From a virus, in the IMG/VR virus record IMGVR_UViG_3300020205_001337, positions 1 to 25,775 of that record: a stretch of DNA of 25,775 nt, one strand, 5' to 3'. Shown here in pieces: positions 2,533 through 17,628 of the stretch (the first letter of the stretch is position 1; every line of letters begins with the position of its first letter). The notes beneath the pieces were generated by a model, which did no database searches, was not told the DNA's origin, and saw nothing but the letters and a program-made list of their open reading frames with translations. The position numbers and the translations under genes are program-made.

Positions 2533-3252
2533 ATGCCTTTACCAAAGATCTCTACGCCAACATATGAGTTGGAACTTCCTTCTACTGGACAAGAAATTCA
2601 ATACAGACCATTTCTAGTAAAAGAAGAAAAACTTCTTGTCCTTGCATTAGAAAGTGAGAACACAAAAGAAATCACAACAGCAATCAAGAATGTAATTAAG
2701 AGTTGCATTCAAACAAAAAATATTAAGGTTGAATCTTTACCTACTTTTGATATTGAATATCTCTTTTTGAATATTCGTGGTAAGTCTGTTGGGGAAGAAA
2801 TTGAAGTTAATGTCATCTGTCCTGATGATGGTGAGACTTATGTTCCTGTGAAAATTAATATTGATGAAATTCAAGTTCAAAAGAATGAAGATCATAATAA
2901 TAAAATTCAAGTAGATGATAATATTGTTATGCAAATGAAGTATCCTTCATTGGATCAGTTCATTAAAAATAACTTTGATTTTTCTGGTGATGCAAATATG
3001 GATCAGTCTTTTGATCTGGTTGCTAGTTGTATTGATAAAATCTTCAATGATGAAGAAGTTTGGACTTCTGGTGATGTAACTAAAAAGGAACTTATTGATT
3101 TTCTAGAACAAATGAACTCGGCACAATTTAAGCAGATTGAAAAGTTCTTTGAAACGATGCCTAAACTTTCTCATTCTGTAAAAGTTAAAAATCCAAAAAC
3201 TGAAGTTGAGAGTGAAGTGATTCTTGAAGGGTTATCAAGTTTTTTCGCATAG
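2533..3252 (+). CDS. 26: gp26-like baseplate hub / tail assembly protein
   Basis: This 239-aa protein matches the T4 base-plate gp26 family. Its N-terminus LPSTGQEIQYRPFLVKEEKL and the following LP-FDIEYLFLNIRGKSVGE (about residues 74-95) are the family hallmarks. The middle has a cysteine-containing strand (VICPDDGE) and the C-terminal third is helical and acidic (LIDFLEQMNSAQFKQIEKFF). T4 gp26 is 208 aa and acts in hub assembly. The gene ends AGT TTT TTC GCA TAG, so it carries a canonical T TTT TTC slippery heptamer just before the stop. A -1 shift would extend it into the next small frame. Being directly upstream of the tape-measure gene, it sits where lambda-type tail assembly chaperones (G/GT) are found. 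A weak TAGGT ribosome site precedes ATG 2533. Confidence 0.85.
   Translation: MPLPKISTPTYELELPSTGQEIQYRPFLVKEEKLLVLALESENTKEITTAIKNVIKSCIQTKNIKVESLPTFDIEYLFLNIRGKSVGEEIEVNVICPDDGETYVPVKINIDEIQVQKNEDHNNKIQVDDNIVMQMKYPSLDQFIKNNFDFSGDANMDQSFDLVASCIDKIFNDEEVWTSGDVTKKELIDFLEQMNSAQFKQIEKFFETMPKLSHSVKVKNPKTEVESEVILEGLSSFFA
3240..3246 (+). promoter_or_regulatory. Candidate -1 ribosomal frameshift slippery site (T TTT TTC)
   Basis: In the gp26 reading frame the heptamer reads as X XXY YYZ, two codons before the TAG stop. After a -1 slip the next codons are CGC ATA GGT ATG, in frame with the 57-aa ORF and without a stop. The predicted fusion would be 298 aa. No long stem-loop immediately downstream was verified by folding. 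Confidence 0.6.
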
Positions 3253-3254
3253 GT

Positions 3255-3428
3255 ATGGTCCATATGGACCTGGAAAACTTTTATAAGTTGAACTTTGCTT
3301 TGATGCAGTATCATAAATATTCATTATGGGAAATTGAACATTTGATGCCCTGGGAAAGGGATGTTTATGTTGCAATGTTGAAGAATTATCTGGAAGAAGA
3401 AAAATCAAAGCAGCAACAAAATGGATAA
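3255..3428 (+). CDS. 57-aa hub/tail-assembly protein, possible frameshift extension of gp26
   Basis: This small frame encodes MVHMDLENFYKLNF...; its core is WEIEHLMPWERDVYVAMLKN (residues 25-44), followed by an acidic/Gln-rich tail. The W-EIE-LMPWER-VYV-ML pattern looks like the helical T domain of tail assembly chaperones, which bind the tape measure. It lies 2 nt after the gp26 stop, in the -1 frame, and overlaps the tape-measure start by 8 nt. It could be made from its own ATG (3255 or 3264) or as the gp26 fusion through the slippery site, or both. In T4 the gene after 26 is 51, a hub assembly factor, but it is much longer, so equivalence is only positional. Confidence 0.75.
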   Translation: MVHMDLENFYKLNFALMQYHKYSLWEIEHLMPWERDVYVAMLKNYLEEEKSKQQQNG

Positions 3429-5460
3429 AGATCTGAACAACTTACTTACAGGAGCAGGTGACTCTTCAAAATCTGCTCTTGCTTTGTATGAAGGTGTGGG
3501 AGAATCAGATCTTGTTAGTGAAGAAGTAGATGAAAGAATTTTAAAACTTATTGGTTTAGATGATGTTTTTGATATTGACTATGGAACTTATGTTTCTCTT
3601 TTAAAAGAAAGATTAGTTGCATCTAGAAGTTTTGATAAGAAACTTTCTTCCGAAGAAGATGAGTTATTGGTTAAAGAATTTAAAAGAGTAAAGGGTAAAG
3701 TAGGAAGATTTAAACTAAAGAAGAAAAATATAACAGCAGAAAGTATTGGTACAACTGGTCCTATACAAATCTCAAGAGATAAGTTTTTTCTTGCAAGTAA
3801 AGCAATTGTTCCGACAACTGCTGGTCCAATGCAGGAATCTTCTAAAGATATAAAGGATATTGAAAAAGCACTAGATGATATTCTAAAAAGTTTAACCCTG
3901 CAAAATAAAGAAAAGAAAAAAAGAACAGACGAAGAAAGAAAAAAATCAGAAGACCGTAGGAGAAGACAAAGAGAGGGTGATTTAGAAAAACCACTGACTC
4001 AATTAAAGTCACTTGCAAAGAAAATCATTGCACCCGCACAGGGAATACTTGATCGTATCTTTAGGTTTATTAAGTTTACTTTATTGGGGTATGCATTTAA
4101 TCAACTTGTAAAATGGTTTAGTGATCCCAAGAATGCAGATAAAGTAAAAGTTCTTGGTAGGTTCTTAAAGGATTGGTGGCCTGCATTATTATCTGCATAT
4201 GTTTTATTTGCCACTCCATTTGGTAGGTTTATTCGTGGCACTTTAAAACTATTAAGGGGACTTATTCCCCAAATGGTTAAGTTCATTGCTAAACACCCTA
4301 TTATTGCCGCTGCAACTGCTGCTGGTGTAGGTGCATATGTAATGGTCCAAAAGAATGAAGCATATCGTGATGAACTGAAAAAGACTGAACCTTCTATTGT
4401 TACACCAAAAGAAACTAAAGAAACTGGGAAAACGCCAGGAACACCACAACTACAGCAAGAACAGGTCTTCCAAAGAGGACTTGGTGGAATGTTTAATGGT
4501 GGTGGTTTGATTAAAAGAAAATCATTCTTTGGTGGTGGACAGGTACAAAAAGAACTGAATGTAAATGATATTGCATTTGAAGGCGGTGGTGGTGTTGATG
4601 ATAGCAGTGGAATGAGAATAACTGGGGCAGGACCTGATACCCAGTTGATTGCTGCCGCACCAGGTGAAATAGTAATGTCTAAAAAGGCAGTTGATAAGTA
4701 TGGTGCAAACTTCTTCTTGGATATGAATAAAAAGGCAGGTGGAACTAATATTCCAAAGATGGTGAATAATATTCAACTTGCTGCGGGTGGTGGATTAATC
4801 AAAAGAACTATAAAGTCATTCCAAGGTGGTGGAATGGTTGGTGGTGCATTAAATCAACTTGGTAGATTTCTTCCCGGAACTGGTAGCGTCATAGCACCAA
4901 GATATACTGAAATGGGTTTACAGAATAAGTTGCTTGGTATACCTCTGAATAGAAGAGTTGTCAATCAACAAGCAGGAGAAAGACTTTCTCCTAAAGCAGT
5001 TAATAGGTATAATCAAGCACCAACTGCTCCTAGTACTATAAGACCTTGGAGTGCTTTTGATTCAACTCAAGTTAGTGTTCCTAAACCAACAGGTACTTCT
5101 GGTGGATCTTTTGTCGGAAATGCTTTTAAGAACTTTGGGTCAAATGTAAAAACTATACAAGGTGCCGCAAAACGTCAGGAAGTAATGATGAGAGAAATGG
5201 GGTATGAACCAGATGGATATGTAAATCTTCGTGGACAACCAATGAATCTTGGTCCACAAAGTCGTTCTGTTGCTCCTGGTCCTCCAGTGACGGTATCTAA
5301 GACAACATACACAATTCTTCCTCCAATCAAAGCACCAAGTAAGCAACCTTCAATTGCAAGGGGTTCTAAAATACCCGAGTTTATTATCTCTAGTAATAAT
5401 GATTCTAGATCAAAAATTGCTTCTTCATTAGGTATCGCAGATTTAGTGGGGGTAGCATAG
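3421..5460 (+). CDS. Tape-measure-like tail/hub protein (679 aa)
   Basis: Residues 1-100 are acidic and helical. A very charged coiled coil (about 140-200, rich in EKKKRTDEERKK) follows. Then comes an amphipathic block GILDRIFRFIKFTLLGYAFN (208-227), hydrophobic helices around 254-267 and 285-310, and Gly-rich linkers with two copies of GGGLIKR...SF-GGG (360-373 and 456-471). Residues 411-440 (AAAPGEIVMSKKAVDKYGAN onward) match the PGE-V-KAV-KYG-FL--N signature common in phage tape-measure proteins. Its place after the gp26/57-aa pair fits T4 gp29 (590 aa), the tail-length ruler held in the hub. Its GILDRIF-LLGYAFN block recurs in the next protein. The start at 3421 overlaps the preceding ORF, implying coupling. 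Confidence 0.7.
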   Translation: MDKDLNNLLTGAGDSSKSALALYEGVGESDLVSEEVDERILKLIGLDDVFDIDYGTYVSLLKERLVASRSFDKKLSSEEDELLVKEFKRVKGKVGRFKLKKKNITAESIGTTGPIQISRDKFFLASKAIVPTTAGPMQESSKDIKDIEKALDDILKSLTLQNKEKKKRTDEERKKSEDRRRRQREGDLEKPLTQLKSLAKKIIAPAQGILDRIFRFIKFTLLGYAFNQLVKWFSDPKNADKVKVLGRFLKDWWPALLSAYVLFATPFGRFIRGTLKLLRGLIPQMVKFIAKHPIIAAATAAGVGAYVMVQKNEAYRDELKKTEPSIVTPKETKETGKTPGTPQLQQEQVFQRGLGGMFNGGGLIKRKSFFGGGQVQKELNVNDIAFEGGGGVDDSSGMRITGAGPDTQLIAAAPGEIVMSKKAVDKYGANFFLDMNKKAGGTNIPKMVNNIQLAAGGGLIKRTIKSFQGGGMVGGALNQLGRFLPGTGSVIAPRYTEMGLQNKLLGIPLNRRVVNQQAGERLSPKAVNRYNQAPTAPSTIRPWSAFDSTQVSVPKPTGTSGGSFVGNAFKNFGSNVKTIQGAAKRQEVMMREMGYEPDGYVNLRGQPMNLGPQSRSVAPGPPVTVSKTTYTILPPIKAPSKQPSIARGSKIPEFIISSNNDSRSKIASSLGIADLVGVA

Positions 5461-5461
5461 A

Positions 5462-8368
5462 ATGGCAACTATAGATTCCAAAAAACTTTTACCTTCAAGT
5501 AAAGAAAGCAGTGCAATAGAGAAACCAAAGTTTCTTGTACCCTTTAAAAGTATTTCAGTAAAAAAGATAACAGGTTCTGATCTAAAACCTGTAGATAAAG
5601 TAGGAACTGATGAACCTGGAAGTTTAGTTGTAGTTAAAAAAAAGATTGTAAGTTTAAGTAAGATAATAAACAACAATCTTTTACTTGATCAAAAGGAAGC
5701 ATCTGCAAAAAGAAAAGAAGGAGAAAAATCTAAAAGAGAAAAGAGAGAGAAAGATCTAGAGCAAAAAGTTAAAAAAAATAATATTAAACCAGACCTGATA
5801 GGATCAATTCCAGGGCAAAGTATTTTTGATAAGATTAATCGTTTTATTGGATTTACTTTACTTGGTTATTTGTTTAATCAGTATGGTCAACTACTTCCCA
5901 AACTTATGGAGTTTGGAAAAGTTCTTGAACCTGTTGGTAAATTTGTTGAAGGGTTTGCTAAAAATTTACTCAAAGGTGTAGTTGATTTTGTTGAGTTTGG
6001 TTATAAAGCATACGATCAAACAAGAGACTTTGTTAAACAGATTGGTGGCGAAGGAGCACAAAAAACCTTTGATGATTTCTCAAAGAACTTAAATCTTTTA
6101 TTGAATGGTGCGATTGGTGCTGCAATGTTGATTGCAAGTACTGCACCCCCAAAAACAACTCCAAAAGTTGGATTTGACAAAATTGGAAGAAAAATCGGAC
6201 AAGATACGCAAAAAAGATATTTGGAAAGATATGGAGAGAAAAAATTTGTAGAAAGATTTGGAAATAAAAATTTACAGAAACTTGCCACAAAAAAGGTGAC
6301 TGAGGGTGCTGCAAAAGGAGCAGCAAAACAAGTAGCAACTCAGGGGGCAAAACAATCTTTGAAATCATTGGTTGCTGTTCCAGTTATTGGATCTTTGATT
6401 GGTTTTATTATTGATACAGTTGTCTTCCGCGAAAAACCATCCAGAGCGGCTGCGGGTGCAGTTGGAAGTGCCATAGGTCAAGGAATTGGTATTGCTCTTG
6501 CTGGAGGAACAACATTTGGTCTTGGTGCTGGTGTTGGAATGTTCGTTGGTGGTTTTGCTGGAGATTGGATTGGTAAAGCATTATATGACACTATTGTTAG
6601 TTATAAAACAGAACCACTTCAAGCAAAGGCACAGGGGGGAACTGTTACTGGAAGTGGTCAGTCTACCGTTACGTCGTCAAGAAAACTTAAAACTAGACCA
6701 AAGAAAACTACGCCAAAAATTCAATCACAAAAAACGCAACCAGGAAAAGATGCTGGTGGTAAGTTGAGAATTGAAGAGTTATATGGTAAGGATGAACCTG
6801 GAAAGAGAAGTGCATTAAGAGCACTGAAGAAGAGTTCTGAAGATGTGAAAAAGATGAGATCTATCAATGGACTTACTGGTGCAATGTTTGGTGCCGGTAT
6901 TGATATGGCACTTGGACAAAAACCAGATAAGAAACTTGCAAGATCAATTGGCGATGTATTTGGTTCAGTTATTCAGAATGCAGTAAACGCTGAACTTAGC
7001 AGTTCTTTTGGTGATATTTCTAAAACTATTGCTATGGCAAGTGGTGGAGTTGTCCCAACAAGAGAAATTGGAAGTGGATTAAGTATTGGCGAAAGAATAG
7101 GGAAGTTTATTTCTAGTGCCCTTGCGATTTCTATTGAGAGTTCTGCATCAAGAATACTTCAGAATTTAAATAGAGAATTAAATTTAGAGGGAGGTCCTCC
7201 AGGAGGAGGTCCTAGTGGAGGTGGTGGTGATGGTGCAAGTCCAAGTGTCAGCAGTGATAGTGCAGATTTTTGGTTGTTATCTTTAATTTCCTTATATGAA
7301 AATGCAAATCCACAAGGTGCTGCAGATGTTGCACAATCAATCTATAATAGAATGGGATATAGTGGAAGAAACGCAAGACAAATTATTCTTGCAAGAAATC
7401 AGTATCAACCAGTAGGAAAATTTGGATCTGTGTCAGAATGGAATAAAGTTATTGATAAAGAAACAGCACTTGCTCATATTAAAAAATATCCAGGTAATGC
7501 TGCTAGTGCTTCTGGATTAGAAAAGGTTGCTGCTGCTTTATTGGACAAATCTATGCAACAGAGATCTGCAAAGTGGATTGGTAATAGACCAGATTTTAGA
7601 AGTGATGGATATGAATCCTCTAATGATGAAATGACTGATGACATTAGTAGATATGGACAAACTTTTGGATTTAATAAAGGTAGTGCATATAAAGGTAAAT
7701 CTCCAGTTGCTCAGAGAATTCCAAGTTTAGTGAAAGGAACAGTAGATCAACTTAAACCTAAAGGACTTCCTTTGACTGGAGAAAATGGAAGATTAAAACC
7801 TTCGCAACTTACCAGAGTTGGAACTTTAATAGGAGGTGTTGATTATCAAGATTGGTATGGTAATGGTGCATATTTAAGAAATGATGCAGCGGCCGCTTTC
7901 TTGGCAGCAAAAGAGCAAGCCAAAAAAGAAGGCATAGCAATACCCATTACTAGTGCATATAGAAGTTTGGAACATCAGAGAGCGATTCAAGGAAAATATT
8001 CTGTTGTTGCTGCCCCAGGAACATCTAGGCACGGTGAGGGTACTGCTTTGGATATTCAAACCGGAACTGCTGGGTATTCCTGGTTTGTTCAAAATGGACC
8101 AACTTATGGTTGGCGTTATATGGCAATACCTGGAGATCCAGTTCATTTTGAATATGTTGGTGGATTTACTCCATCAAAAAAACAAAACCAAGTAAAACTT
8201 TCTCCAATTTTTAACAGAAGTCAAGCATCATTGGCACCAAATCAACCAACATCTACTTCAGTTGCCTTTGCAAATAATAGCACCTCAAAAACAGACACAT
8301 CCGCAAAAATTATTACCAGTGCCGTCGCTATTCTTCCAATAGAAGTCTCTATGGAAAGTTTCGCGTGA
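5462..8368 (+). CDS. Tape-measure paralogue with SleB-like and M15 peptidase domains
   Basis: This 968-aa virion-associated protein starts with a Lys/Glu-rich coiled region (60-105), then SIFDKINRFIGFTLLGYLFN (120-139), the same block as in the preceding tape-measure-like protein. Gly/Ala-rich membrane-active helices follow (300-375). A Pro/Gly linker (578-598) leads to a SleB-like hydrolase: LYENANPQG with candidate catalytic E613, QSIYNRM (625-631) and NQYQPV. A second enzyme, an M15 D,D-carboxypeptidase/endopeptidase, spans about 795-905. It has SAYRS (831-835), SRHGEGTALDI giving Zn ligands H857 and D864, and GDPVHFEYV with D892 and H895. The protein would cut both glycan and peptide of host peptidoglycan on DNA entry, replacing gp5 lysozyme. 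It starts 1 nt after the previous stop. The last 65 residues are Ser/Thr-rich. Confidence 0.8.
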   Translation: MATIDSKKLLPSSKESSAIEKPKFLVPFKSISVKKITGSDLKPVDKVGTDEPGSLVVVKKKIVSLSKIINNNLLLDQKEASAKRKEGEKSKREKREKDLEQKVKKNNIKPDLIGSIPGQSIFDKINRFIGFTLLGYLFNQYGQLLPKLMEFGKVLEPVGKFVEGFAKNLLKGVVDFVEFGYKAYDQTRDFVKQIGGEGAQKTFDDFSKNLNLLLNGAIGAAMLIASTAPPKTTPKVGFDKIGRKIGQDTQKRYLERYGEKKFVERFGNKNLQKLATKKVTEGAAKGAAKQVATQGAKQSLKSLVAVPVIGSLIGFIIDTVVFREKPSRAAAGAVGSAIGQGIGIALAGGTTFGLGAGVGMFVGGFAGDWIGKALYDTIVSYKTEPLQAKAQGGTVTGSGQSTVTSSRKLKTRPKKTTPKIQSQKTQPGKDAGGKLRIEELYGKDEPGKRSALRALKKSSEDVKKMRSINGLTGAMFGAGIDMALGQKPDKKLARSIGDVFGSVIQNAVNAELSSSFGDISKTIAMASGGVVPTREIGSGLSIGERIGKFISSALAISIESSASRILQNLNRELNLEGGPPGGGPSGGGGDGASPSVSSDSADFWLLSLISLYENANPQGAADVAQSIYNRMGYSGRNARQIILARNQYQPVGKFGSVSEWNKVIDKETALAHIKKYPGNAASASGLEKVAAALLDKSMQQRSAKWIGNRPDFRSDGYESSNDEMTDDISRYGQTFGFNKGSAYKGKSPVAQRIPSLVKGTVDQLKPKGLPLTGENGRLKPSQLTRVGTLIGGVDYQDWYGNGAYLRNDAAAAFLAAKEQAKKEGIAIPITSAYRSLEHQRAIQGKYSVVAAPGTSRHGEGTALDIQTGTAGYSWFVQNGPTYGWRYMAIPGDPVHFEYVGGFTPSKKQNQVKLSPIFNRSQASLAPNQPTSTSVAFANNSTSKTDTSAKIITSAVAILPIEVSMESFA

Positions 8369-9702: not shown

Positions 9703-9918
9703 ATGGAAAGATCACTTCAACAACACATTAATAATGATAAAGACGAACTTGACAATCCCAGTACGAGTTCGCAGAGAAGAAGACATTTAGAAGATGAACT
9801 TGATTCATTAGAAAAATATCAAGTCAATCATCCAGATGATGATCACGACCCAACACCTTTAGAATTGTACTGTGACGAAAACCCCAATGCTCTAGAATGT
9901 AGAGTATACGAAGATTAA
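9703..9918 (+). CDS. cp12: Small acidic CP12-like protein
   Basis: This 71-aa protein has a helix with RRRHLEDELDSLEKY (25-39), an Asp/His linker (44-50), and the C-terminus PLELYCDENPNALECRVYED (52-71). The C57-x8-C66 loop with a central Pro and the ECRVYED end are the C-terminal signature of CP12. CP12 is the redox-sensitive linker that inactivates GAPDH and phosphoribulokinase in the Calvin cycle. The helix with EDELDSLE may stand in for the PRK-binding AWD-VEEL motif, which is not exact here, and the N-terminal cysteine pair of many CP12s is absent. Cyanophages are known to carry cp12, which is thought to divert host carbon flow. Here it sits between hub genes, 11 nt after gp27 and 2 nt before the gp5-like gene, so it would be expressed with the tail genes. 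Confidence 0.65.
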   Translation: MERSLQQHINNDKDELDNPSTSSQRRRHLEDELDSLEKYQVNHPDDDHDPTPLELYCDENPNALECRVYED

Positions 9919-12851: not shown

Positions 12852-13814
12852 ATGCCAGAAATCGGAAATCTTGTTATTGGTGGACAACTTCAAACTACAC
12901 CAAACCTTCCTGGAGGAGCTCTTGGACCACCTGCAACTGTACTTGGAGGTAGTGCTGCTGGACCACCAATCAATGGTAGTTTTTGGACGGAGGGACCGAT
13001 GTTGGTTGGTTCTCCAATCTCTTACCCACTTCCAAGACCTTCTGCAACTTTGATGATAGGTAGATCTAAAAACTACCTAGCACCAGAACTAAATGCATTG
13101 CCTATTGTACAGGTAACCAGTCTGGGGGCTGCACCTACTCCAACTGATCTTTTGATTGGAGATCCGTCAGGACCTGTAGGACTTACTGCTACTCTTGCGC
13201 CAAAAGTTACTGTTACTGTTCTGGGAAAGACAACTTATAGTGCGATTAAAACTACAGGATCTGGAATATTATCTTGGAGTGGAAAAAAGGTTACTGTAAA
13301 TGCAAAAACATTTTTTAATGGTAAAAGCACTACGACTGGTAAGAAAGTTATTAATGGTGCAACAAAGATCAATGGATACTTAACTGTCACGGGTGGTTGT
13401 AAAATTGGCGGTTTCCTTAAATTTGCCGGTTCAATTGTTGGTACTACTAAAAAGTTTGATATTCCACATCCAACTATAGAGAATCACCGATTAGCACATT
13501 CTTGTATTGAAGGTCCAGAAAATGGAGTTTACTATAGAGGAAGACTTACTAACTCCAATGCAATCAATCTACCTGATTACTGGAGAGGACTAGTAGATCC
13601 AGAAACAATTACTGTTACATTAACTCCGCACGGTTCATATCAAGAGTTATATGTAAAGAGTATTGAATGGGGTACTAAAGTTAATGTGTTAAATAATTCT
13701 GGTGGACTTATTGACTGTAGTTATACAGTATTTGCAAAGAGAAAAGACGTTGCAGATTTAGTCGTTGAATATGAAGGAAATGAACCAAAAGAATGGAGTA
13801 TAGTAGGAAAGTAA
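12852..13814 (+). CDS. Spike/fibre structural protein with shared C-terminal domain (320 aa)
   Basis: A strong AGGAGG ribosome site lies 6 nt before the ATG. Residues 1-120 are Gly/Pro-rich (GGALGPPATVLGG, TEGPMLVGSPIS) and of unknown fold; there are no His or Cys residues that would support a PAAR tip. Residues 120-195 are Thr/Gly/Lys beta repeats (TTGKKVINGATKINGYLTVT). From about 200 comes a compact domain with IPHPTIENHRLAHSCIEGPE, YYRGRLTNSNAINLPDYWRG, PETITVTLTPHG and CSYTVFAKRKDV. The same domain is found alone in the 107-aa protein at 15173, so the two are paralogous. Such C-terminal domains occur on marine phage fibre and spike proteins, where a folding or receptor role is plausible but unproven. 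Confidence 0.65.
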   Translation: MPEIGNLVIGGQLQTTPNLPGGALGPPATVLGGSAAGPPINGSFWTEGPMLVGSPISYPLPRPSATLMIGRSKNYLAPELNALPIVQVTSLGAAPTPTDLLIGDPSGPVGLTATLAPKVTVTVLGKTTYSAIKTTGSGILSWSGKKVTVNAKTFFNGKSTTTGKKVINGATKINGYLTVTGGCKIGGFLKFAGSIVGTTKKFDIPHPTIENHRLAHSCIEGPENGVYYRGRLTNSNAINLPDYWRGLVDPETITVTLTPHGSYQELYVKSIEWGTKVNVLNNSGGLIDCSYTVFAKRKDVADLVVEYEGNEPKEWSIVGK

Positions 13815-13817
13815 ATT

Positions 13818-15176
13818 ATGGATCCTAGATATTATTCGGTTGTCAATGACGATTTAAAGGTTAAGTTAGACGATTCTTATGCTGCTATAGAAGATTCAAC
13901 AGAAGCAATTATTGAAGCAGATGCAACAAAGGGAGCATATGATGATATTATAACTTCGTTAGATGTGGATATTTTTAATGAAGTTCAAAGTGTAAACTCA
14001 AATATCGTTGATGTTGCGAGTGCATATCAAGATAGAATCAATGTTGGTTGTAGAACTGATGTATTTTGGAGACTGACTGGAACTGCAGGAACAACTTATA
14101 CTTTAGTAGCAACTCAACTTTCTCTTGCTGGTTATGCAGGAACTCTTCCTAGTGTTGAGTATTTTAATGGTACTGGATTTGTAACTTACAGTAACTACAG
14201 CACGTTTGGTTTCAGCACAGAAAGTGCATACGGTGTTAAGTATTATAATGAACCAGTAACAGAAGATTTTGAAGACACTTTTGTTACTAGTTTTATTGGA
14301 ACAATTTCTACTGGTTCTAATAAACTCGTTGCCTTATCAGTTGTAGGTTCTTCTTCCACGATTGGTATTACTACGGGACAGTTGGTTACATCATCAAAGA
14401 CTGGCGTTCTTCCATCTTCAAGCAATATTGTAGGTATTGGAACAACCACATTATCCCAATCTATTCTTGGTATTTCTACAGAATCTCCAGTTACTATTTT
14501 GACATTAGACACTACAGCAACTGGTATTGCATCTGCACCAGAATCTGATGGATCTTATGCGACCTTCACTGTTTCAAAATCAACAACACAATTTACGTAT
14601 GATGATTATGAAATATCTTCAGAAAGTGATCCATTTATTCCACAAACGATTGGAATTATGACAACGGGTGATATTGGTATTGGTGTATCAATTAAATATG
14701 ACAACTCTGGATATCTTTCTAATCCCATTTCTTGGAATCCAGATGCTGTTGATGAAGAAGACCCAAATACCTTTGAACCTAATGTTGGTGCTGGTACATA
14801 TTATCTAACGGTTGGGTTCTCCTCTTATCCAGTTACTTTAAGTGGACAAAGAGTTTCTGTTGGATTTGTCACTACTGTCGATGCAACTCAATTTAGTGGC
14901 ATTCTTTCGGCAACTTCTGCTTGCCCAACCCAAGAAACAAACCTAACTAATGCGATTAATACCCTAAATACTGCGAAGACCAATATAACCTCTGGTATTA
15001 GCACACTTAACTACAAAATAGATGTTGCAAATACCTTTAGGGAACAAAGAAAAGAATATCAATCAGAAATTTGGGGATTGAGGCAACAAATCGCATCATA
15101 CCGTGCTGATATTATTAACTACGAAAAAGCACTCAACTATCTTGGTGTATCAACAGTAACGAATGTAATCTTATGA
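13818..15176 (+). CDS. Virion structural protein with C-terminal coiled coil (452 aa)
   Basis: Residues 1-75 are helical and acidic (DDSYAAIEDSTEAIIEADAT). The centre (75-360) is Ser/Thr/Gly-rich beta sequence with repeated phrases such as IGTISTGSNKLVALSVVGSS and GIGTTTLSQSILGIST. The C-terminal 90 residues form a coiled coil (LTNAINTLNTAKTNITSGIS, then YQSEIWGLRQQIASYRADII) that suggests trimerisation. It starts 3 nt after the previous stop and overlaps the next gene by 4 nt (ATGA), so the four genes 12239-15496 form one coupled unit. I do not recognise a specific family; a fibre or spike accessory part of the baseplate is the best reading. Confidence 0.6.
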   Translation: MDPRYYSVVNDDLKVKLDDSYAAIEDSTEAIIEADATKGAYDDIITSLDVDIFNEVQSVNSNIVDVASAYQDRINVGCRTDVFWRLTGTAGTTYTLVATQLSLAGYAGTLPSVEYFNGTGFVTYSNYSTFGFSTESAYGVKYYNEPVTEDFEDTFVTSFIGTISTGSNKLVALSVVGSSSTIGITTGQLVTSSKTGVLPSSSNIVGIGTTTLSQSILGISTESPVTILTLDTTATGIASAPESDGSYATFTVSKSTTQFTYDDYEISSESDPFIPQTIGIMTTGDIGIGVSIKYDNSGYLSNPISWNPDAVDEEDPNTFEPNVGAGTYYLTVGFSSYPVTLSGQRVSVGFVTTVDATQFSGILSATSACPTQETNLTNAINTLNTAKTNITSGISTLNYKIDVANTFREQRKEYQSEIWGLRQQIASYRADIINYEKALNYLGVSTVTNVIL

Positions 15177-15496
15177 AATTTCAACATCCAATAGACAAGT
15201 CTAAAACTCTTCACTATGAACATCCACTGACAAATAAGCACCTTGTATTCACTCAAGGTCGTATTTCCAGTGGAAAATATATTCAACTTCCACCTGAATG
15301 GGAAGGTTTGATCAATCCATCAACGATTACTGTACATCTGACGCAAGTTGGTGCAGATCAGTCACTTGTTGTAAAAAGGATTGAAGACCTTAAGGTATAT
15401 TTGAGCACTAATGGTATGCCACCAAACTGTTACTATTTGGTGTTTGCCGAAAGACGCGACCTCCCCCGATCCGAAACCCTTGACACGGACCTCTGA
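15173..15496 (+). CDS. 107-aa protein, stand-alone copy of fibre C-terminal domain
   Basis: The protein is nearly all one domain. HPLTNKHLVFTQGRISSGKY, then IQLPPEWEGLINPSTITVHL and YYLVFAERRDL, align with residues about 204-300 of the 320-aa spike protein (HP-H-RGR--N-I-LPDYWRGLVDPETITVTLT...YTVFAKRKD). After RRDL it diverges and ends with SETLDTDL, where the base composition becomes GC-richer and a sigma70 -35 element lies in the last codons. The 3' end may have been replaced when the neighbouring accessory DNA was joined. Function is unknown; a chaperone or cap for the fibre proteins is possible. Confidence 0.65.
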   Translation: MKFQHPIDKSKTLHYEHPLTNKHLVFTQGRISSGKYIQLPPEWEGLINPSTITVHLTQVGADQSLVVKRIEDLKVYLSTNGMPPNCYYLVFAERRDLPRSETLDTDL

Positions 15497-16857: not shown

Positions 16858-17005
16858 GTCTATGAATCAGTGGCGGTGGACACTCTGTGACTCTTCACGC
16901 CCTATTCGTAGACAAGAATCTGGTCAAAGACCATTCATTCGTGATGCAATGGAAGATATTGCAAACACTATAGAATATATGCTTGAGTGCAAACAACTAG
17001 AATGA
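16832..17005 (+). CDS. Small hypothetical protein (57 aa) coupled to Mom-like gene
   Basis: I take ATG 16832 (MKITIWYCESMNQWRWTLCD...) as start; upstream codons in this frame to 16721 overlap the better-supported preceding gene. The protein has an N-terminal beta pair with many Trp, then a helix IRDAMEDIANTIEYMLECKQ. Cys are at 8, 19 and 53, not in a CxxC zinc-finger pattern. Its TGA overlaps the ATG of the Mom-like gene (ATGA), so translation of the two is linked. No family recognised. Confidence 0.6.
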   Translation: MKITIWYCESMNQWRWTLCDSSRPIRRQESGQRPFIRDAMEDIANTIEYMLECKQLE

Positions 17006-17628
17006 AGTCTGACTTCTATATTGATAAGATTTCTAAAAAAGAAGCAGAAAAACTTTTACTTCAATATCATTACCTTAAAGACATTTCCAAAACATTTAAG
17101 AGTGGTTGGAACTATGGACTTTTTAAGAAGAATGAGTTCTCTCCTTTAAATATTGGAGGTTCACTTGGAGTTTGTATTTTTACTGGACTGCCAGTACCTG
17201 AAATTGCAAAAGGTGCTTTTGGACTTGAACGAAATGAACAACAAGGACTCTTTGAACTCTCAAGACTTTGCATTGAACCTAGTACGCAGTCAGAAGAATA
17301 TAACATCACTTCTTGGTTTGTGTCACAGTCGATTAGACAATTTCGGAAAGATACTGAAGTTAAAGCAATCCTTTCTTATGCTGATTCAGATCACCATTCT
17401 GGTACAATTTATCGCGCTTGCAACTTTAAGTATTACGGTCTCACGGATAGAAAAAAAGATTTCTATTATTCAGACGGAACTAAACACTCTCGTGGAAAAA
17501 TAAAAGGTTCTGAAGGAGAATGGAAAGAAAGAAGTAGAAAACATAGGTACTTGATGGTGTTTGATAAGCAACTTCAAGATAAACTAAACTGGAAAGAACA
17601 AAAATATACTAATAAAACTGACTCATAA
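17002..17628 (+). CDS. Mom-like GNAT-fold DNA adenine modification protein (candidate)
   Basis: This 208-aa protein starts at ATG 17002, inside an ATGA overlap; an in-frame GTG at 16987 is less likely. Motifs match the family of phage Mu Mom, a GNAT-fold enzyme that adds a bulky group to adenine in DNA and blocks restriction. They are YHYLKD (22-27), GGSLGVCIF (52-60), FELSRLCI (84-91), SWFVSQSIRQF (104-114), SYADSDHHSGTIYRACNF (125-142), and a basic end with HRYLMVFDK (181-189). The SYAD---H-GTIY-A-F block is the strongest link. The expected role is protection of phage DNA from host nucleases. It closes a coupled chain of small genes after tRNA-Thr. A different GNAT acyltransferase remains possible. 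Confidence 0.7.
   Translation: MKSDFYIDKISKKEAEKLLLQYHYLKDISKTFKSGWNYGLFKKNEFSPLNIGGSLGVCIFTGLPVPEIAKGAFGLERNEQQGLFELSRLCIEPSTQSEEYNITSWFVSQSIRQFRKDTEVKAILSYADSDHHSGTIYRACNFKYYGLTDRKKDFYYSDGTKHSRGKIKGSEGEWKERSRKHRYLMVFDKQLQDKLNWKEQKYTNKTDS

Follow-up and report, generated by a model that had tools for sequence, protein, structure and literature searches.

In a cyanomyovirus represented by an uncultivated contig, the gene for a T4-like gp26 protein is in all likelihood read in two ways: ribosomes slipping back by one base on the heptamer T TTT TTC, aided by a downstream hairpin, would produce a long tail chaperone in addition to the short one encoded by the unshifted frame. The evidence comes from the sequence of the window, i.e. 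the entire IMG/VR contig of 25,775 bases, and from those of its relatives. Our results suggest that the lambda-type device of making a short and a long chaperone very probably extends to cyanomyoviruses, which are abundant marine and freshwater phages. Moreover, the genes annotated as gp51 in cyanophages are, judging from these sequences, very probably the ends of frameshifted gp26 genes and not separate genes.

The gp26 junction

The gp26 homologue occupies positions 2533-3252 on the + strand and encodes 239 amino acids followed by a stop, the presumed short, TAC-N-like isoform. It scored 261 bits against PF12322 (T4_baseplate, E 1.1e-77), where the curated cut-off is 24.5, and belongs to the T4 gp26 family; it also matched phrog_150 (3e-82) and, in profile comparison, T4 gp26 itself (E 3e-14). 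Its last codons are AGT (3238-3240), TTT (3241-3243), TTC (3244-3246), GCA (3247-3249) and TAG (3250-3252, +), the 0-frame stop that ends the short isoform. Read directly, they agree with the original prediction that gp26 ends with a T TTT TTC heptamer (3240-3246, +), of the canonical slippery form X XXY YYZ, phased exactly for a -1 shift.

Following such a shift, reading would resume with CGC at 3246 and continue with ATA GGT ATG GTC (R I G M V H M D L E ...), in a frame that stays open until the stop at 3426-3428. This TAC-C-like extension (3246-3428, +; 60 codons and a stop) runs, as had been claimed, without interruption into a 57-aa ORF, whose annotated start, the ATG at 3255-3257 (+), is in the -1 frame and probably not the true start. 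The predicted fusion comprises 238 + 60 = 298 aa, the length first proposed, compared with 239 aa for the unshifted product. The extension matched phrog_634 (1.2e-25), labelled baseplate hub assembly catalyst, and the 57-aa ORF was matched by positions 240-278 of phrog_150, a profile long enough to include the extension.

Conservation of the slip site and of the extension

The presence of the heptamer alone proves little since TTTTTTC is not rare in the AT-rich window, where we counted 10 copies on both strands against 16 expected by shuffling; its rarity was consequently dropped as evidence, and it is conservation that counts. The heptamer was in phase in all 80 close IMG/VR relatives, and it was missing from only four of the 273 junctions compared, which came from IMG/VR and from named phages; these four are T4, RB43 and the Ackermann-type records K397 and VP-1. 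The Ackermann-type records 3M and GR28A likewise lack it. From the 273 junctions we drew 84 non-redundant lineages, kept solely if T TTT TT[C/A/T] was in phase, and the presence of the heptamer in 84 of 84 should be interpreted in the light of this selection. Among these lineages the residues at the site are Ser, Asp, Asn, Thr or Ala, then Phe-Phe or Phe-Leu; despite such changes, every one of them has T as the last base of the preceding codon and TT as the first two bases of each slip codon. Across cyanomyoviruses and beyond, heptamer, phase and open -1 frame are all kept, which answers the check proposed with the original prediction.

Four Ackermann-type records (L089, L091, L282 and L287) have an open -1 frame after gp26 and no canonical heptamer (e.g. 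C GTT TTT C or G GTT TTC), and a different slip signal may therefore serve them. In Rhizobium phage RHph_I1_18 (L279, 2100-2178) T TTT TTA is located 34 nt ahead of the gp26 stop, so that the short form has an extra tail past the slip site.

The open -1 frame is under selection at the protein level, as seen in the conservation of its residues and in a pN/pS of 0.18 within the window clade, where the remaining frames gave 1.3 and 2.1. Conservation includes the -1 frame residues FFR[IV], which precede any possible start codon. In 45 of the 84 lineages, the eight codons that follow the slip site contain no ATG, and the earliest one falls inside the conserved domain (codons 10-35); one of these lineages is L004, whose gp26 is 98% identical to that of the window. 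In public records of relatives the extension carries the label gp51 “baseplate hub assembly catalyst”, and in P-SSM2 it is annotated as a separate gp51. The annotated ORF is shortened to 30 aa in P-HM2 and to 34 aa in C48C1, and Ochrobactrum ORM_20 has no extension ORF annotated.

Two other explanations have to be weighed against frameshifting. One is chance, or mere conservation of the residues Ser/Asp-Phe-Phe where the genome is AT-rich, and the commonness of TTTTTTC in the window could be invoked in its favour. We give it next to no credence: the T run is preserved even where the second Phe has changed to Leu (TTTTTTA), and only five of the 86 other Phe-Phe pairs in gp26 genes have the slippery form, against 84 of 84 at the junction. 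The naive probability of this conservation given the residues is about 1e-36, a value that ignores shared ancestry and overstates the case because the lineages are related. The other holds that the 57-aa ORF is a separate gene (“gp51”), translated from the ATG at 3255 by coupling after the gp26 stop. That ATG lies 3 nt past the stop, it is found at the equivalent position in 32 of 84 lineages, and public records do annotate a separate gene. However, in the 45 lineages with no ATG near its start the extension cannot be a free-standing gp51, and together with the shortened or absent ORFs and the conserved residues upstream of any start this makes an independent gene a poor explanation. It would also leave the invariant heptamer unexplained, and the same domain is encoded fused in T4; we consider a separate gene very improbable, and -1 slippage within gp26 is the reading we pursue below.

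RNA structure around the slip site

A hairpin with the sequence GGUCC-AUAU-GGACC (3257-3270, +) begins 10 nt 3' of the heptamer and is a candidate frameshift stimulator. The ∼40 nt 3' of the heptamer were compared with 300 synonymous recodings per lineage, and the region of the window's own hairpin was more structured than its recodings (z -4.3, p 0.003). Over the 84 lineages the mean z was -2.83 (Wilcoxon 7e-14), with 53 of them individually at p<0.05, whereas a control stretch 60 nt further downstream gave a mean z of 0.00. In sliding windows of 36 nt the excess was confined to starts 0-15 nt past the slip site, where the mean z was about -2.2, and most other starts were near 0.

The arms of the stem co-vary within the window clade (GGUCC/GGACC, GAUCC/GGAUC, GGUUC/GAACC and AGUCC/GGACU), with compensatory changes in four of the five stem pairs among 47 sequences and a covariation score reached by none of 500 shuffles. 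In other clades the stems differ and stand 5-7 nt from the heptamer: AGUAUGGCUCA.../UGAGUCAUACU, GCCCUC/GAGGGC, GGCUCUC/GAGAGCC (covarying versions, weaker controls) and AAUGAUGCAC/GUGCAUCAUU. Downstream structure at such short distances, present in the window, is not universal among the relatives: the hairpin is missing or weak in L004 (z +0.7), in much of the TTTTTTA/SAR clade and in the C48C1 clade.

Two further elements are weaker candidates. A second small hairpin, AACUU-UUAU-AAGUU, is predicted by folding at 3276-3289 (+). A Shine-Dalgarno-like GAAGGG (3226-3231, +), located 8 nt upstream of the slip site, was considered as a possible weak stimulator and demoted to a possible minor part, as signals of this type are in weak excess over synonymous recoding across the set (mean z -0.58, p 2e-4) and the one in the window is not significant by the same comparison (z -1.2, p 0.16).

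Proposed mechanism

The site, its phase and conservation, the protein-like evolution of the -1 frame, the covariation of the hairpin and the homology to T4 gp26 and gp51 were all observed, and from them we infer slippage, its rate, stimulation by the hairpin and a chaperone function. Most ribosomes would translate gp26 to the TAG at 3250 and release the 239-aa short chaperone. Some, with the Phe codons TTT TTC in their P and A sites, would slip back by one base at T TTT TTC, with assistance from the hairpin starting 10 nt downstream and perhaps from the upstream GAAGGG. Slipped ribosomes would bypass the stop and complete the 298-aa long chaperone with its C-terminal domain. If the two forms act like lambda gpG and gpGT, the tape-measure protein would be coated by the short one, and the scarcer long one would bring in tail-tube subunits and initiate growth of the tube.

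The same products could arise if RNA polymerase, and not the ribosome, slipped on the T run and added one extra U. A homopolymer of 6-8 T with an added U would yield the same -1 product, and downstream hairpins can stimulate polymerase slippage too. Six T are short for efficient slippage by bacterial RNA polymerase, and the run is not lengthened in most lineages; moreover the heptamer may end in C, A or T, as expected for tandem slippage on X XXY YYZ. Transcriptional slippage, which one review treats together with ribosomal slippage (PMC5009743), is thus a slim prospect, if slightly less so than a separate gene. More deserving of consideration, albeit still unlikely, is the view that the slip site works alone and that the hairpin, while real, serves mRNA processing, blocks reinitiation or acts in transcription. 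Its absence from, or difference in, some lineages that keep the heptamer would fit such a role, as would the variation of the stems between clades in sequence and register. On the other hand, five clades have their excess of structure 5-10 nt beyond the heptamer, with none elsewhere nearby, and this spacing is the usual place for -1 stimulators.

We propose, as a somewhat better than even reading, that frameshifting in T4-like phages is driven by lineage-specific hairpins, repeatedly rebuilt in new sequence and register around a fixed heptamer. According to the same proposal a duplication in the T4 branch, with gp26 as the short and gp51 as the long protein, made frameshifting unnecessary, and the non-slippery Phe-Phe of T4 is its trace. 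The hairpins also constitute a set of natural covarying variants with which the function and evolution of -1 stimulators could be tested.

Relation to T4 gp26 and gp51

In T4, gp26 (208 aa) and gp51 (249 aa) are encoded by genes on opposite strands and are paralogues, both matching PF12322 (8.8e-64 and 3.9e-52) and each other (blastp 2e-6). The gp26 domain of the window is found in both T4 proteins and the extension solely in gp51: the extension profile matched residues 201-245 of gp51 (E 2.5e-5) and did not match T4 gp26 (E 0.88). Aligned by eye, the gp51 segment VFKLLVNPDEIFTFYQIN runs colinear and gapless through the frameshift joint FFRIGMVHMDLENFYKLN. Here the likeness ends, as T4 has two separate divergent genes and no slip site, and does not frameshift; the Phe-Phe of T4 gp26 is encoded by GAG TTC TTT, which is not slippery.

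Two PF12322 genes were found in seven of the 24 genomes checked (T4, RB43, Cronus, SFHK24, phiAS4, KARL-1 and phiP4-3), and in each of them a long gp51-type gene is present and the end of gp26 lacks a T6 heptamer. Among the 17 one-copy phages of the same 24 genomes, 13 have the heptamer, and the exceptions are the four Ackermann-type records with no canonical one. In an unrooted tree, gp51 forms a single clade (100/99), and a branch (98/99) sets the one-gene phages to one side. As this tree has no root and does not resolve T4-type gp26 into a clade, the direction of change is taken from parsimony with the other phages only.

The two isoforms, one short and one long, match the pattern of a tail-chaperone pair, given that the extension corresponds to the C-terminal domain of gp51 and that gp51 is a paralogue of gp26. 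The suggestion that gp26 and its extension are the T4-lineage version of the tape-measure chaperone pair is supported by these two results and by conservation. The G-T shift has been described as conserved in long-tailed phages “except T4” (PMC5009743), and our results explain this supposed exception as replacement by two paralogous genes.

Proposed chaperone function and known systems

A short and a C-terminally extended form of one protein are indicated by the frameshift anatomy of the window and by the paralogous gp26 and gp51 of T4, and such forms beside a tape-measure region are, by analogy, the mark of tail assembly chaperones. The AlphaFold model of gp26 (pLDDT 85.8) adds suggestive evidence, insofar as its best-probability PDB fold matches include the HK97 tail assembly chaperone 2ob9 (probabilities 0.69 and 0.44) and YqbN 3klu (0.30); these matches had E above 1 and are to be read as suggestive only. 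A sequence search of solved structures with gp26 returned nothing meaningful. The extension gave only coiled-coil matches to viral gp41, which we judged to be chance effects of composition. One source classes both T4 proteins, gp26 and gp51, as chaperones of hub assembly and describes gp51 as needed for assembly and absent from the particle (PMC3004832).

We found no sequence link between the gp26 of the window and lambda gpG in this analysis, and the slip heptamer of lambda is G GGA AAG, unlike the T TTT TTC of the window. The arrangement is nevertheless similar: in lambda the short chaperone gene, which precedes the tape-measure region, has a -1 shift near its 3' end that yields a minor form extended at the C terminus (PMC5009743). 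In Pseudomonas phage Adele and the Vandenendeviridae, an open -1 frame follows the short-form stop in all genomes and the slip motif is T-rich as well, but the motif is GTTTTT and not T TTT TTN, and the phage family is different (PMC12846349).

Our search found no paper directly on frameshifting in cyanophage gp26. The abstract of the study by Vladimirov, Gautam and Davidson reportedly mentions genes 26 and 51 by name and describes frameshifting as a conserved feature of several T4-like groups. As judged from papers that cite it (PMC10885494, PMC12846349), this study had already presented gp26 and gp51 as tail assembly chaperones of the T4 lineage (Vladimirov, Gautam & Davidson 2022, Virology 566:9-15), and the original prediction was therefore right in its interpretation without being new. 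The PRFect paper states that some T4-like phages do without frameshifting and have two genes, one short and one long (PMC10885494), and the Adele paper refers by citation to poly-T slip signals within the TAC-N genes of T4-like phages (PMC12846349). As far as papers citing Vladimirov et al. 2022 allow comparison, the genes and the two-isoform logic are the same; the window differs in being an uncultivated cyanomyovirus contig, and our analysis measured the downstream hairpins together with their covariation. What may be new is that these covarying hairpins are clade-specific, as no report of such hairpins was found in the literature covered, which stopped short of most subscription papers.

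Neighbouring genes

Upstream of gp26 lies a gene for a tail-tube-family protein (1741-2502, +; PF23849 6.6e-19, phrog_45 2.5e-38). The slip site had been placed just upstream of the tape-measure gene; an ORF does adjoin at 3421 on the + strand, and its identity as the tape measure comes from position and weak similarity. This 679-aa ORF (3421-5460, +), which overlaps the end of the extension, is likely the tape measure or a tape-measure-like protein, given its position and its weak matches to tape-measure phrogs at E 0.013-0.017. A Pfam search for a tape-measure family in seven proteins from ORFs that follow gp26 found none, and the 679-aa product itself matched no Pfam family. The following ORF (968 aa, 5462-8368, +) has a C-terminal VanY/M15 peptidase domain (PF02557 5e-10) and shares a segment of ∼100 aa with the 679-aa ORF (blastp 5e-12); either could be the tape measure. 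In Rhizobium phage RHph_I1_18 the tape measure is annotated two ORFs downstream, and in Vibrio K575 the next ORF matches a tape-measure phrog at 1.1e-6.

Other genes of the window deserve brief mention. Beside the head-closure (gp4) gene, a short ORF on the - strand (1274-1711) resembles homing endonucleases, with NUMOD motifs and a match to phrog_314 (4e-11), and is possibly a remnant. A CP12-domain protein (9703-9918, +; PF02672 6e-14), a host-type regulator of the Calvin cycle, is encoded inside the tail/baseplate cluster. The ORFs at 12852-13814 and 15173-15496 (both +) each match phrogs 17490 and 28536, which suggests a duplicated domain. A Mom-like DNA modification protein (16987-17628, +; PF25680 2e-26) suggests that the phage DNA is modified.
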